A stretch of 64,000 bases of DNA. Source: Streptomyces sp. SJL17-4. GTDB taxonomy: Bacteria; Actinomycetota; Actinomycetes; Streptomycetales; Streptomycetaceae. The translations under genes were made by a program, and so were the position numbers. Numbering within the stretch: the stretch's first letter is position 1; every line of letters starts with the position of its first letter. This document shows positions 48,698 to 54,025 of the stretch, in pieces. The stretch lies in contig NZ_CP104578.1 of NCBI RefSeq assembly GCF_036826855.1, positions 3,410,001 through 3,474,000 on the forward strand, given 5' to 3'. The notes below the pieces were generated by a model. It worked only from the letters and a program-made list of their open reading frames with translations. It was not told the origin of the DNA and made no database searches.

Positions 48698-49975
48698 TCA
48701 CGCCTGCTTCGAGGCGAGTTCGACGAGGGTGATGTCCGAGGGCGCCCCGACCCGGACCGGCGGTCCCCAGGCGCCCGCGCCGCGCGAGACGTACAGCTGG
48801 GTGTCTCCGTACCGTTCCAGCCCGGCGACGGTCGGATTGGCCAGTTCGGCGAGGTAGTTGCCGGGCCAGAGCTGGCCGCCGTGGGTGTGACCGGAGAGCT
48901 GGAGGTCCACGCCGTGGCGTACGGCGTCGTGGACGACGATCGGCTGGTGCGCGAGGAGCACCGCGGCGCGGGCCCGGTCGCGGTCGCCGAGCGCCCGTCC
49001 GAAGTCGGGGCCCTGGCCCTCGCTCTCCCCCGCGATGTCGTCGACGCCGGCGAGGTCGAAGCCGGCTCCTATCTCCACGCGCTCGTTGCGCAGCGGGCGC
49101 AGCCCGAGCTCACGGACGTGGTCGACCCAGGCGTCGGCGCCCGAGAAGTACTCGTGGTTTCCGGTCACGAAGAAGGAGCCGTGCCGGGCGCGGAGCCGCG
49201 CGAGGGGCTCGGCGGCGGAGCCGAGGTTCTCGACGGTTCCGTCGACGAGGTCGCCGACGATCGCGATCAGGTCGGGCTGGGTGGAGTTGATCGTGTCCAC
49301 GATGCGCTGGGTGTGGGCGCGGCCGAGGATCGGCCCGAGGTGGATGTCGGAGACGACGGCGATCCGGTAGCCGTGGGCCGCGCGGGGGACCTTGGCGAGC
49401 GGGACGGTGACCCGCTTGACCCGGGGGCCGCGCAGCACGCCGTACGTGCCGTAGCCGACGGTCCCGACGGCGGCGGCGGCCGCGGCGCCGCCGACGACCC
49501 GGGAGACGAAGAGCCGCCGGGAGACCTCGGCGGGCGTCGTGGCGACTGACGACGGGGCCGCTTCGGCCGGCTCCCCGGGGGCGGCCGGCACGTGTTCCGG
49601 CACCGGCACGGGTACGGGCGCCGCCACCGGCGCCGCCGTGGGCGCCTCGGCCTGCGCACGGCGGTCGAGCCAACGGCGCAGCAGGGGTCTGACCGCCTCG
49701 CCGACGGCCAGGGCGAGGGTCACGTACAGGAGCAGCGCGAGCCACAGGAAGCCGGGCCAGGCGACCACCTGCTGGAGCACGAACGGCGCTCCGGCACGGG
49801 CCGAGCCGAGGGCCGCGAACGACAGCAGCGGCAGCACCACGACGGCGACGGTGCCCAGTCGGCGCGGCAGGCTCCCGCGCGTCGTGACATCACGCACGAG
49901 GCGCCGCCACACGTACCAGTGCACCGCACCGAGCAGTGCGAGCACCACGATCAGAACCAGCAGGAAGACGACCAC
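48698..49975 (-). CDS. Metallophosphoesterase membrane protein
   Basis: Protein of 425 residues. Two or three membrane segments in the first 90 residues and another near residue 160 precede a calcineurin-like domain with VVSDIHLGPILG, IVGDLVDG, TGNHEYFSG and SGHTHGGQLWPG, covering all metal ligands. The GTG start overlaps the end of the broken SCO4848-family gene upstream, which would normally be its operon partner. GAGGGGG is the ribosome site. Substrate unknown. Confidence 0.9.
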   Translation of the reverse strand: MVVFLLVLIVVLALLGAVHWYVWRRLVRDVTTRGSLPRRLGTVAVVVLPLLSFAALGSARAGAPFVLQQVVAWPGFLWLALLLYVTLALAVGEAVRPLLRRWLDRRAQAEAPTAAPVAAPVPVPVPEHVPAAPGEPAEAAPSSVATTPAEVSRRLFVSRVVGGAAAAAAVGTVGYGTYGVLRGPRVKRVTVPLAKVPRAAHGYRIAVVSDIHLGPILGRAHTQRIVDTINSTQPDLIAIVGDLVDGTVENLGSAAEPLARLRARHGSFFVTGNHEYFSGADAWVDHVRELGLRPLRNERVEIGAGFDLAGVDDIAGESEGQGPDFGRALGDRDRARAAVLLAHQPIVVHDAVRHGVDLQLSGHTHGGQLWPGNYLAELANPTVAGLERYGDTQLYVSRGAGAWGPPVRVGAPSDITLVELASKQA

Positions 49976-50142
49976 GCCCGGAAACCCCCTCTTCTACCGC
50001 TCGCGCGGCCCTGACCGTTTTCGCGGCGCGCGGCGCGCACCCCACGCAACCCGAGCACTCCGAGCACCGTCCCCAGGACAAAGGACGTGACGGCAAGCAG
50101 CAGACGAACCCAGAAGTAGGCCGTCGGGTCGCCGGCGTCGTG
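49951..50142 (-). pseudogene. C-terminal fragment of the split SCO4848-family gene
   Basis: From about 50140 down to 49951 the minus strand encodes DAGDPTAYFWVRLLLAVTSF and a following VLGTVLGVLGLRGVRAA segment, matching the second half of the intact copy at 50189-50428. The frame upstream of 50142 is unrelated sequence. The N-terminal half lies 2.4 kb away at 52528-52611. About 15 residues between the two halves are missing. Confidence 0.85.
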
Positions 50143-50188
50143 CCGGATACTGGCATGACCGACCCGCCTACCCCCGGAAGGGCATCCC

Positions 50189-50428
50189 GTGAAGCTCAGC
50201 CGTCGCACGTCCTGGTTCCTGCTCGCGTTCGGTGCCTGGTCTTGGATGATCTGGATCACCTTCGCTCGGAACCTGTACAAGGACGCGAGCGGACTTGCCT
50301 TCGACGACGCGGGCGACCCGACCGCCTACTTCTGGGTGCATCTCGCCCTTGCCGTGACGTCGTTCATCCTAGGGACAGCGGTCGGCGTGATCGGCCTGAG
50401 GGGCGTGCGAGCGAACACGGGCAAGTAG
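50189..50428 (+). CDS. Intact SCO4848-family membrane protein carried by the element
   Basis: Protein of 79 residues with two membrane segments: SWFLLAFGAWSWMIWITF and YFWVHLALAVTSFILGTAVGVIGL. It begins at GTG 50189 with GGAAGGG upstream and is on the opposite strand to both halves of the broken gene. It differs from them at many positions, and its codons are less GC-biased, so it looks like a foreign orthologue, perhaps carried to replace the gene disrupted by integration. The cellular function of the family is unknown. Confidence 0.82.
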   Translation: MKLSRRTSWFLLAFGAWSWMIWITFARNLYKDASGLAFDDAGDPTAYFWVHLALAVTSFILGTAVGVIGLRGVRANTGK

Positions 50429-50743
50429 AAAGCAGAGCCCGAAGAAGGCCCCGCGCTGTCTCGCTGCCCGTCCCGGCCGCCTGCCCTTCCTGCGGCGAAG
50501 CGCCCGGGACGGGGCCTGTCCTCCCGCCCCTGCCGTCTCGCACCGCCGCGATCACGGAAGGGATGGGAAACCTGGGTGTGCGGCTGGAGTGCTCGACGTA
50601 CAGGTAGACGGCGCGGCTCACCGGTCACGCCTGTACGGCTCGGCGCACATGGGGGTGCCGGTACACGACGACGGGCGGCCCGGACTGCCGCTCCACGGTG
50701 CCCCGGTCGCCGGGACGTAGGAACCTCGTACGTTCCCCACTTC
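50429..50743. other. Non-coding remainder of the integrated element
   Basis: No credible gene is seen. Short reading frames here have no starts or family matches. An inverted pair GGGACGTA (50712-50719) and TACGTTCCC (50729-50737) precedes the XRE fragment. Confidence 0.5.
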
Positions 50744-50772
50744 GGGACGTCCTACGGCGGGCAAAACGTCCC
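50744..50772 (+). promoter_or_regulatory. Inverted repeat before the XRE fragment
   Basis: GGGACGT (50744-50750) and ACGTCCC (50766-50772), ending 1 nt before the ATG. Together with the similar pair at 50712-50737 it looks like a tandem operator. Confidence 0.55.
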
Positions 50773-50773
50773 T

Positions 50774-50935
50774 ATGAGAAACGAGCGACTACGCCTCACC
50801 ATGGCGGGCGGTGAATGGACCTTCGCAACTCTCGCCAAAGCAATAGGAGTTGACCCGAAGAGCGTTGAGCGATGGGTGAATCCGGGGCGCATTCCCAGGC
50901 GACGTGCTTGTCCATGCCGCCGTCTTCCTCCATGA
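50774..50935 (+). pseudogene. N-terminal fragment of an XRE-type regulator
   Basis: The frame from ATG 50774 reads MRNERLRLTMAGGEWTFATL, then AKAIGVDPKSVERWVNPGRI, the DNA-binding start of a well-known Streptomyces regulator family. After RIPRR the frame runs into unrelated sequence and stops, so only about 45 of the expected several hundred residues remain. Confidence 0.75.
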
Positions 50936-51010
50936 GGCGTCCTATTCTCTTCCCACTTGCTCTGCGGTCCGGCATCCCTGCGGCAGATATGTCCGGGGCT
51001 GCGCGGCGTG

Positions 51011-51322
51011 CTATCGGCTCAGCTGCGAGCGCAGAGCGGTGATGAACCAACTGAAGACCGGCGCGAGAGTAGGCGGTACCGGCCAGCCGTTGACGGTCGA
51101 CAGAAGCTGCCAGTAGCGCTCCGCCCGCGGGTCTGCACCGGCCTCCAGACGGCGGACGAGCCACCGTCGCAGCTCGGCGTCGTCGGCACGCTCGAACGTC
51201 TCGGCGTAGAGCGCGGAGAGGGAGTCGACGACCGGCGCCGCCTGGGCGGACGTCGCCTCGATTCCCGCCGCGAGAGCTTCGCCGACCTGTTGGTTCGGCG
51301 ATGGAGTTCCGGACGTGCTCAA
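51011..51322 (-). pseudogene. C-terminal fragment of an unrelated protein fused behind the integrase remnant
   Basis: A minus-strand frame ends ...[40 protein letters not shown] and a short tail. It looks like the end of a MerR- or TipA-type effector protein, but the match is weak. Its upstream part (from about 51290) is integrase DNA read in another frame, so the two were joined by a deletion. TTG at 51320-51322 is only a nominal start. Confidence 0.5.
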
Positions 51323-52492
51323 GGTGCGCCGCCGTCTCGCGCCTTTCTTCCTGGACTCCGGACAGATCCCGCTGCACCGCGAAGCGGAGTGCTGCCTCGG
51401 CCACCACTCCCTGTCCTTGTCGTCGTCCATGTCCGCGCCGGCGAGACGTGCCACACCCGTCCGGCGACGCAGTCGTCGGCGTCCTTGCGCTTGATGCTCA
51501 GCCCGCCGTGCCCCTTGGGGTTGGAGCACATGTAGTAGTCCTGTCCGCCGTTGTTCTTGCTCTGCCCCATGGATCCCGTGCAGATTCCGCAGGTGGCGAA
51601 GCGCCACCCGCTCAGGAGCGTGGGTGTGGCCTCTCCGCCGGGCTGCCTGTCGGTCCTGGCACGCTTGCTCCGCTTCTCCTGGAGCTCCAGCCACCGGGCT
51701 CCTGGGACCACTCCCCGGTGAGGTGTCAGAGGTGTCCCCGCCTCGTTCCGGGCGATCACGTTCACATACGCCTTGCCCCGCTTGACGCGTTCGCTCGCGA
51801 AGCCGCCGATGGCGGGACGGGAGAGGATCCAACGCACCGTCTGCGCACGCCACCGGATGGGGCTGTCGTCCTCCGCCACGCGTCGCTTCTTGACGGACTC
51901 CATCCGCCTCTCGGTGGCGCGTCGCGCGGCCTCACCCGGCGCGGGTACATCCTCCGCGTCCAGCGTCGTCGCGATCTTGTTGTCGGAGACTCCGGCGAAC
52001 GACATCTCCACCATGCGTTCGACGATCGCCACGTGATCCGGGTTGTCCTCGTCCGGTTCGAGGACGGAGACGACGAGATTGCCGATCTTCTCGCGCACGG
52101 CCCGCATGCCGTACGGGGCGGAGCTGGAGTGTCGGCCGCCGACCGCCTTGATCTCGTCCTTGGCCCCGCGCAGACGCTCCGCCTCGATGTCGCCGGGAGA
52201 GTTCGTCGACCACCACCACGTCGACCTCGCCCGCGCGCACGGCGGACATGAGGTCTTCGAATGACGGACGGATCACATGTGGATCCCAACCCGACCTACC
52301 CACGTCTTTGAACGTGTGAACGACCTCCCAACCACGGCTCGCCGCCAGCGCCTCACCGGCTGCCACCTGCGCTTCCGGAGACGCCTCGGACGAGTCGGGG
52401 CGCGCCTTGGACTGTCGGGCGTAGACGGCCACCCGCACGGTGTCCAGCCGCTCGGCTCCCACGGGCGAAACGAAAGGGGCCAAGGCTCTCAC
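51320..52492 (-). pseudogene. phiBT1-type large serine integrase, broken
   Basis: Minus strand in four segments. First (52492 to about 52208): TVRVAVYARQSKARPDSSEA with the catalytic Ser, up to VDVVVVDELSR. Second (about 52208-51440), in a different frame: GDIEAERLRGAKDEI, SSSAPYGMRAVREKIGNLVV, QTVRWILSRPAIGGFA, and zinc residues in CGICTGSMGQS and YYMCSNPKGHGG. Third and fourth, each in a new frame: ARLAGADMDDDKDREW and AEAALRFAVQRDLSG. Compared with phiBT1 integrase about 50 residues after DELSR and the last 170 or so are missing. It cannot be active. Confidence 0.88.
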
Positions 52493-52520
52493 CTGATCTT
52501 CTCCGTCATCGAGGCTCTAC

Positions 52521-52560
52521 AGGTTAGCTACGTATGGAAAGTGATCCAGATGAACCAGCT
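52521..52560. other. Right attachment junction (attR-like)
   Basis: AAAGTGATCCAGATGAACC at 52538-52556 is the chromosomal half of the site inside the SCO4848-family gene, close to the known phiBT1 attB. To its left the sequence changes to element DNA (GGTTAGCTACGTATGG). The integrase start lies about 45 bp away, as expected for an attP-derived end. No matching junction is found at the left end. Confidence 0.7.
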
Positions 52561-52611
52561 CCCCACCCCGAACGCGAGCAGGAACCAGGAGACGCGGCGG
52601 CTGAACTTCAT
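52528..52611 (-). pseudogene. N-terminal fragment of the split SCO4848-family gene
   Basis: From ATG 52611 the minus strand reads MKFSRRVSWFLLAFGVGSWF, then IWITFHT and a TAG at 52528-52530. It matches the first 25 residues of the family and breaks exactly at the attachment site. The remaining half is at 49951-50142. Confidence 0.88.
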
Positions 52612-52720: not shown

Positions 52721-54025
52721 GTGTCTGCTTCGAAGAAGACCGCTTGGGCGGTCGCTGCTGCCGTGTTCCTGCCGCTCGTCGTCGCCGTGCCCGCCCATGC
52801 GGACACGAAGGACGAGAAGGACAAGCAGCCCAAGCCCCCGAACGCGATGTCCTCGCTCGGCGGGCCGCTGCTCGGCAACCCCGGTACCCAGGTGAAGCTG
52901 GGGCCCGGTGCCCCGGTGCTGCCGAAGGAGCTGTCCGGACGGTCCTGGATCGTCGCGGACGCCGAGAACGGCCAGATCCTCGCCGCGCACAACGCGCACT
53001 GGCCGCTCGCCCCCGCCTCCACGCTCAAGATGCTCTTCGCCGACGCCCTGCTGCCGAAGTTCTCCGACGCCAAGCGCAAGCACCTCGTCACCAACACCGA
53101 CCTGGCCGGGATAGGAGCGGGCTCCAGCCTGGTCGGCATCAAGGAGAAGCAGACCTACACCGTCCACGACCTGTGGCTCGGCGTCTTCCTCCGCTCGGGC
53201 AACGATGCCGTGCACGTCCTGACCAGCATGAACAACGGTCTGCGCCAGACCGTGAAGGACATGAACGACCGCGCGGCCGAGCTCCAGGCGCTCGACACGA
53301 ACGTGGTCTCCCCGGACGGTTACGACGCCCCGGGCCAGGTCTCCTCCGCGTACGACCTGACACTCATCGCCCGCAGCGGCATGCAGAAGCCGGCCTTCCG
53401 CGAGTACGCCGCCACGCCCCGCGCCGCCTTCCCCGGCGAGCAGAAGCCGGGCAAGAAGCGCGAGACCTTCGAGATCCAGAACACCAACCGGCTGCTCACC
53501 GGTGACCTCGGCGTCGCCCCGTACCAGGGCATCGCGGGCGTCAAGAACGGCAACACCACGCACGCGGGTGCCACCTTCACGGGTGTCGCGGAGCGCAACG
53601 GCAAGGTCCTGCTCGTCACCGTGATGAACCCCTCCTCGAAGGAGCAGCACGCGGTCTACCGCGAGACCGCCCGGCTGCTCGACTGGGGCTTCGCCGCCTC
53701 CGGGAAGGTGACCCCGGTCGGCGAGCTGGTGCCGCCGCGGTCCGCCCGTACCGAAACGACCGCACCGGACGACGGCTCGGCCCCGGCGCCCGGCAAGAAC
53801 GCCTCGCAGGGCACGGTCCAGGCGGCCGCCGAGGAGCGGTCCGGCGGCATCGGGATCGCGCTCGGCGTGGCCGGCGGGGTCCTCGTCCTCCTCGCCGGTG
53901 CCGTCTTCCTGGTCAACCGCCGCTGGCCGCTGGCCGGGGCGGGGGGACGTCGTCGCCGTTCCCGCCGGAACCCGGACGTGAACCCGGACGTGAACCCGGA
54001 CGTGAACCCGGACGTGAATCCGTAG
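52721..54025 (+). CDS. D-alanyl-D-alanine carboxypeptidase (S11, PBP5-like)
   Basis: Protein of 434 residues. Signal peptide to about residue 28, then SxxK in LAPASTLKMLFADAL, SxN in RSGNDAVHVL and KNGNTTHAGATF as the KTG-like motif (here K-N-G). A membrane anchor lies near residues 385-405 (GIALGVAGGVLVLLAGAVFLV), followed by a basic tail of NPDV repeats. It removes the last D-Ala from murein pentapeptides. GTG start follows TACGTT by 7 nt (leaderless). The tail overlaps the convergent YihY gene by 113 bp. Confidence 0.88.
   Translation: MSASKKTAWAVAAAVFLPLVVAVPAHADTKDEKDKQPKPPNAMSSLGGPLLGNPGTQVKLGPGAPVLPKELSGRSWIVADAENGQILAAHNAHWPLAPASTLKMLFADALLPKFSDAKRKHLVTNTDLAGIGAGSSLVGIKEKQTYTVHDLWLGVFLRSGNDAVHVLTSMNNGLRQTVKDMNDRAAELQALDTNVVSPDGYDAPGQVSSAYDLTLIARSGMQKPAFREYAATPRAAFPGEQKPGKKRETFEIQNTNRLLTGDLGVAPYQGIAGVKNGNTTHAGATFTGVAERNGKVLLVTVMNPSSKEQHAVYRETARLLDWGFAASGKVTPVGELVPPRSARTETTAPDDGSAPAPGKNASQGTVQAAAEERSGGIGIALGVAGGVLVLLAGAVFLVNRRWPLAGAGGRRRRSRRNPDVNPDVNPDVNPDVNP

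Follow-up and report, generated by a model that had tools for sequence, protein, structure and literature searches.

A phiBT1-type integrase relic in a split Streptomyces SCO4848-family gene with a probable replacement copy of that gene

Some mobile elements restore the gene that they enter by carrying its 3' or 5' end, as do elements of the tRNA, guaA, and prfC types, and designed home-and-rescue or toxin-antidote gene drives link a selfish insertion in a conserved gene to a rescue copy. Integrases of the phiBT1 type, phages, and elements of the actinomycete integrative and conjugative element (AICE) type are already known, as are hand-built phiBT1 vectors with an added gene. Serine-recombinase AICEs integrated in protein-coding genes have been reported, and the accessible part of that account describes no carried copy of the target gene (PMC3218068). 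Serine-recombinase mobilizable elements have been described as disrupting dispensable genes (PMC5704250), and GT has been given as the core dinucleotide of phage phiBT1 (PMC5937489). Here we describe a stretch of 64,000 nucleotides (the window; positions 3,410,001 to 3,474,000 of contig NZ_CP104578.1) that is part of the complete 8.5-Mb chromosome of Streptomyces sp. SJL17-4 and in which the SCO4848-family membrane-protein gene is interrupted. The interruption is very probably the relic of an element with a phiBT1-type integrase that split this gene and brought a complete second copy of it as a replacement. The data directly support the architecture and its recurrence, a shared descent of integrase and copy within the main groups, spread by horizontal transfer, and purifying selection on the copy.

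The element of the window and its relatives in other genomes share with phiBT1 (Lomovskayavirus) the SCO4848 target, the integrase family, and the GT crossover core. However, no SCO4848 copy was found in phiBT1, and its integrase falls on a separate branch. One of the relatives, in genome G598, is like AICEs in its RepSA initiator and in its GntR and helix-turn-helix (HTH)-DUF5753 proteins. As with elements of the tRNA, guaA, and prfC types, insertion would occur without loss of gene function, but the gene carried here is whole, separately started, and inverted, whereas in those elements a gene end re-fuses to the host half. The man-made pNG vectors, which are phiBT1 vectors, carry SCO4849 under the SCO4848 promoter so as to make their insertion neutral (PMC7460540). 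Both pNG and the natural elements carry a gene, but that of pNG is the downstream SCO4849 and that of the elements is SCO4848. In contrast to designed home-and-rescue drives, the elements are natural, bacterial, and integrase based, and any resistance of their copy to the recombinase is hypothetical. No description of natural elements with a whole replacement of the gene that they split was found in the literature searched, which was mostly without subscription papers.

The split gene and the intact copy in the window

In the canonical Streptomyces order, the SCO4848-family gene is flanked on one side by a carboxypeptidase-like gene that diverges from it and on the other by a metallophosphoesterase gene in its own orientation. 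In the window this gene is broken in two, with the pieces 2.4 kb apart and both on the minus strand, and the insert between them (50142-52536) carries an intact SCO4848-family gene on the plus strand (50189-50428; 79 codons with a GTG start), which scored 101.7 bits against NF046117. This is the only intact member of the family found in the genome, where SCO4848-type matches numbered three, all at this locus (E <= 0.001). The initial annotation had read the locus as a decayed phiBT1-type insertion and was right in this, but it was incomplete in overlooking the intact inverted copy, with which the gene looks replaced rather than merely destroyed.

The copy is preceded on the plus strand by a ribosome-binding-site-like GGAAGGG (50176-50182, read directly from the window) and by a -10-like GATACT (50146-50151), 43 nt upstream of its start. 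Of 16 inverted copies, 14 have the same GATACT 41 to 46 nt upstream, with a chance expectation of 0.0009 per shuffled sequence. The copy appears to be served by a promoter of its own and to have a leader longer than that of the host gene, and the motifs suggest that the host gene transcript is leaderless and that those of the element copies are not. In canonical loci, GATACT lies 22 nt or fewer from the start codon in 115 of 135 cases.

The N-terminal remnant of the host gene (52537-52611, minus strand) comprises codons 1 to 25 and scored 26 bits against NF046117, below the cut-off of 45. Its frame continues to a stop at 52528, and its conserved Trp17 is altered compared to the gene of G004, a close relative in which it is unsplit. 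The C-terminal remnant (50032-50141, minus strand; approximately codons 39 to 75) scored 45 bits. The halves aligned with the G004 gene at 95% identity over 189 nt and 93% over 192 columns, which upholds the two-part minus-strand gene first described. However, the C-terminal part had been drawn down to 49951, and because the stop codon of this remnant is gone, the frame onward to 49951 is not host coding sequence. The right junction had been placed near 52538, and host homology in the G004 alignment indeed ends at the att core (52537-52548, minus strand), GAAAGTGATCCA, which reads TGGATCACTTTC on the gene strand and contains the crossover AC (GT on the opposite strand). The left junction had been called eroded, with about 15 codons lost. 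Host sequence is missing there, but the loss relative to the G004 gene is about 40 bp, or some 13 codons. What remains of the left end of the element is 47 bp (50142-50188), approximately half of the roughly 97-bp spacing between the copy and the host C-half in G370 and G395.

The serine integrase of the window lies in four pieces that correspond to residues 1 to 106, 154 to 400, 401 to 416, and 417 to 453 of the G370 integrase. On the minus strand, the resolvase domain (residues 1 to 106) occupies 52175-52492 by profile and G370 alignment, the recombinase domain (residues 154 to 400) occupies 51451-52191, with a zinc ribbon match below the cut-off, and residues 401 to 453 lie in two frames at 51294-51451 by G370 alignment. 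Residues 107 to 153 and approximately 454 to 582 were not found in the comparison with the G370 integrase. The domains PF00239 and PF07508 scored above the cut-off and PF13408 slightly below it. As read from its frames, this integrase is fragmented and does not qualify as an active enzyme. The longest piece is 65 to 66% identical to the phiBT1 integrase (64.9% over 219 residues). The sole phage match of this piece at E <= 1e-5 was phiBT1, which was also the sole phage match of the G370 integrase at >= 60% identity.

The account of a decayed element with a phiBT1 integrase in the phiBT1 attachment gene therefore stands on the four integrase pieces, the split gene, and the core at the right end. 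The refuting test that the initial annotation had proposed did not overturn it. At the thresholds given above, phiBT1 was the only phage match of the longest piece; one unsplit gene is present in G004 and at the canonical loci surveyed below; and a search for related elements in the same gene of other genomes yielded 11 genomes with a phiBT1-type integrase and an element.

Other features of the insert are few. The start of a truncated HTH cargo gene (50774-50935, plus strand) matches a cargo protein of the element in G527, a genome of another genus, at 60% identity over 42 residues. Among nine open reading frames of the insert compared with PHROGs, no phage structural genes were found, and the matches were to integrase/invertase and transcription-regulator families only. 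Six open reading frames of the window gave no Pfam match to the AICE replication initiators RepSA, RepAM, and Prim-pol. The neighboring genes, which served as orientation markers, are the metallophosphoesterase gene (48698-49975, minus strand), with an intact open reading frame, and the D-Ala-D-Ala carboxypeptidase-like gene (52721-54025, plus strand). We take these to be at the SCO4849 and SCO4847 positions, respectively.

Recurrence, orientation, and descent of the copies

At a threshold of E <= 1e-60, we searched 392 Streptomyces genomes with the phiBT1 integrase and 394 genomes of the family with the G370 integrase. Eleven genomes (G000, G248, G357, G370, G395, G409, G598, G707, G712, G527, and G582) contained an integrase with 55% or more identity to one of the two queries, and the remaining matches were about 51% identical or less. 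In each of the 11 carriers, an SCO4848 copy lies at the element end away from the integrase and converges with it, and the shared plan runs from the host N-half through the integrase, cargo, and the inverted intact copy to the host C-half. Both host halves were recognized in nine carriers; in G409 only a 14-residue C piece is left, and in G248 none. As a working class, we define an insert-and-rescue element as one with a full copy of its target gene that lies apart from the host gene and is co-inherited with the integrase, and such a copy accompanied 11 of the 11 integrases.

The elements range from near-minimal forms to a prophage. In G370 the core is present at both element ends, and by eye the arms form an imperfect inverted repeat around it; the ends of the G598 element diverge right after AC, which fits an AC/GT crossover. 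The integrases of G370 and G395 are full length, as is that of the G707 prophage. The G395 element (about 2.2 kb) holds little beyond integrase and copy, the G370 element (5.6 kb) has HNH and NUDIX genes, the G346 element has radical-SAM and major facilitator superfamily genes, and the G598 element (8 kb) encodes RepSA (523.8 bits) along with its GntR and HTH-DUF5753 proteins. In G707, a prophage of about 41 kb lies at SCO4848 together with the copy (L239, L240, and L230) and encodes terminase, portal, head protease, capsid, minor tail, and primase proteins; its terminase is closest to that of phage Attoomi (81% identity). The cargo of the G582 element includes a phosphotransferase-family gene (APH, PF01636; L233:16341-17318). 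A second genus of the family, g27, contributes two carriers and the decayed G558.

Integrase, att site, and copy are constant across the elements. No cargo common to all was found among the elements whose cargo was read; both G370 and G527 have HTH and NUDIX genes. The integrase is broken or partial in G000, G248, G357, G294, G346, G114, G712, and G558, that of G409 has one stop, and the copy stands without an integrase match in G015 and G323. These data bear on the view that the copy is a passenger that is useful in itself, for example through extra dose, a variant membrane protein, or phage exclusion, and that repair of the split gene is incidental. The promoter-like box and leader of the copy, unlike those of the host gene, and its differing protein sequence would fit such a passenger. 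However, each of the 11 integrases accompanies a copy of its own target gene, no other cargo is shared among the elements whose cargo was read, and the copy keeps an intact frame in genomes where decay has damaged or removed the integrase and host halves (G000, G015, G294, and G323; G399 is an exception). We consider the passenger view very unlikely.

Phage records gave no match to the SCO4848 copy. A plasmid search found no element, and its single integrase match was a 5.2-kb record labeled Escherichia coli that is probably a cloning vector. Named genomes scanned with the phiBT1 integrase gave only distant matches in metagenome-assembled genomes (four loci at 23 to 27%).

Orientation was surveyed at 155 loci, which are not a random sample but comprise genomes picked for a closer look and loci from three match lists. 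A full copy was present at 152 of them, 136 canonical and 16 inverted, and no locus had conflicting markers, although the orientation of G289 and G335 rests on a single marker. G399 has a further inverted copy, beyond the 16, that is frameshifted. At two loci, L083 (G172) and L084 (G204), the SCO4848 match ends at about residue 46, at the canonical position and not at the att core, and the metallophosphoesterase gene was not found within the 15 to 16 kb of sequence there. The gene tree leaves out G172, G204, and G399, which lack a full copy, as well as G034, and the tree, the attB counts, the ratios of nonsynonymous to synonymous substitution (dN/dS), and the GATACT counts use the 135 canonical loci without G034. 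The median dN/dS was 0.15 over 120 pairs of inverted copies and 0.19 over 400 random canonical pairs, and the inverted copy is under purifying selection.

In the DNA tree of 151 copies, a single branch separated the 16 inverted from the 135 canonical copies, with a support of 99 in the Shimodaira-Hasegawa-like approximate likelihood ratio test (SH-aLRT), and the support was 98 after codons 13 to 26 had been dropped. The host C-fragments of the element-bearing genomes clustered with host genes. A tree of two flanking genes from 151 genomes (G335 omitted for too few columns, G399 counted as inverted, and G034 as canonical) required 11 changes of orientation label, at least 8 of them forced by starred branches. 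For instance, flanking-protein identity is 97% between G357 and canonical G244 (473 columns) and 92% between G315 and canonical G342. These label changes, together with closely similar flanks of opposite label, indicate horizontal spread. The integrase and copy trees agree in grouping G598 with G357, in grouping G527, G582, and G558, and in placing G370 near G000. The phiBT1 integrase and two viral relatives form the separate branch mentioned above (support of 99).

These trees also bear on an ordinary decayed phiBT1-like insertion in which the second copy arose separately, when the host gene was by chance duplicated or locally inverted. The copy lies inverted at the same locus, as a local rearrangement could leave it. 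However, the Streptomyces copies form a group of their own (the SH-aLRT of 99 above) and are not sisters of the adjacent gene fragments. The inverted layout also recurs in scattered hosts, with copy and integrase co-descending in the main groups. Codon 19 is TGG in 24 of 24 copies, including 5 of 5 from g27, but in none of 27 host genes of g27 and one other genus, and the g27 copies are therefore unlikely to be recent captures of the present host gene. A local duplication or inversion of the host gene was ruled out by the gene trees, and a separate origin of the second copy is extremely improbable.

When g27 was added, with a random 60 of the 135 canonical genes, the host and element copies of each genus formed four separate groups (support of 71 to 94). 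A short protein tree with both genera needed one change (support of 79). In g27, two further genes, at L243 (G566) and L244 (G564), lie on the carboxypeptidase strand, with 1.5-kb flanks that contain neither fragments nor an integrase; they are probably cleaned-up element copies.

A proposed mechanism and its attachment site

We propose the following sequence of events. While the element is circular, attP would lie between the integrase gene and the copy, both of which would point away from it. The integrase would join attP to attB in codon 24 of the SCO4848-family gene, leaving the integrated element with its integrase behind the host N-half and the inverted copy, with its own promoter-like box, beside the host C-half. 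The copy would then be expressed and stand in for the split gene, which would make the insertion cheap or tolerable. After decay of the integrase, the copy would be the sole intact gene and so would be retained while the rest erodes, and the inverted gene would mark the past insertion. As predicted from the frames, the element of the window is at a late stage, with a dead integrase, decaying host halves, and an intact copy.

Several observations weigh against a replacement of this kind. Phenotypes of phiBT1 vectors have been ascribed to polarity on SCO4849 or to its loss (PMC7460540), and given this reported effect, an inverted copy of SCO4848 would not by its presence bring back the downstream SCO4849. 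The copy was found in none of three records, which may be fragments, of phiBT1 and two relatives in IMG/VR, indicating that the integrase does not need the copy. There was no SCO4848 match in 13 of the 392 Streptomyces genomes (including G061, G074, and G136), some of them fragmented assemblies, which indicates that the gene is not strictly essential; it may sometimes have been lost in these genomes or be missing from a fragmented assembly. The frameshifted copy of G399 comes from an assembly that is 55% complete. The integrase and copy trees are discordant for G346, which lies between G370 and G000 in the integrase tree, and several forks are weak. In the DNA tree with the second genus, the copies need two changes rather than one, so that a single origin of the copies across both genera is unsupported by this tree.

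A stronger form of the insert-and-rescue proposal adds self-resistance, in which recoding has made the attB of the copy unusable for the integrase. The element would then be unable to enter its own copy, and phiBT1-type phages would be shut out. At codon 18, all 16 copies have TCN, whereas 128 of 135 Streptomyces hosts have AGY; at codon 24, 15 of 16 copies have ACC and 123 of 135 hosts have ACT. Codon 20 is RTG in all 24 copies and in none of the 135 Streptomyces hosts (3 of 27 in the other-genus hosts). The copy attB is 72 to 81% identical to the host consensus, whereas hosts are at least 75% identical, with a median of 92%, and within the copy attB the left half and core diverge most. However, the 36-bp attB window ranked only 97th of 195 windows for change, and the crossover dinucleotide is unchanged. 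Hosts of the other genera have TCN at codon 18 in 27 of 27 cases and ACC at codon 24 in 24 of 27, so the Streptomyces hosts, rather than the copies, may be derived. Moreover, the phiBT1 integrase is reported to use pseudo-attB sites of 27 to 48% identity (PMC5937489). Self-resistance is in our judgment unlikely, and given the match of other-genus hosts at codons 18 and 24 and the unremarkable 36-bp window, attB recoding was dropped as an established fact. Because codon 20 is still particular to the copies, self-resistance was retained as an alternative reading.

The host genes are themselves unusual at this site. The rare Thr codon ACT accounts for 0 of 61 Thr codons in three flanking genes of the window, yet it is the codon at position 24 in 123 of 135 hosts (for example, L087). 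At two Gly codons (alignment columns 62 and 69), all 135 canonical genes use GGG. Canonical SCO4848 genes are under unusual synonymous constraint at codon 24 and these two Gly codons. A conserved antisense RNA across the phiBT1 site has been reported (PMC3765725), and this RNA might explain the codon constraint in hosts.

Implications for Streptomyces genomes

Phages and elements that bring a complete substitute for the gene they break would not need a dispensable target. Through a mobile element that later erodes, a conserved gene could be exchanged for another version and turned around, and its inverted orientation then remains as a fossil of the event. This matters for work with phiBT1 vectors, since an inverted element-type copy is present at the attB they use in at least 17 genomes (16 and the frameshifted G399) among the 392 from Streptomyces that were sampled; this is a lower bound, since orientation covers only the surveyed loci of that set.

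The elements could also be a natural bacterial counterpart of a home-and-rescue gene drive, in which a module of integrase, attP, and rescue gene is swapped between phages and plasmid-like elements and enters and replaces a conserved gene, the copy is unusable by its own integrase and by rival phiBT1-type phages, and decay leaves the host dependent on it. We regard this broader reading as tentative and unlikely. If it is true, core genes could pass between species by insertion rather than by homologous recombination.

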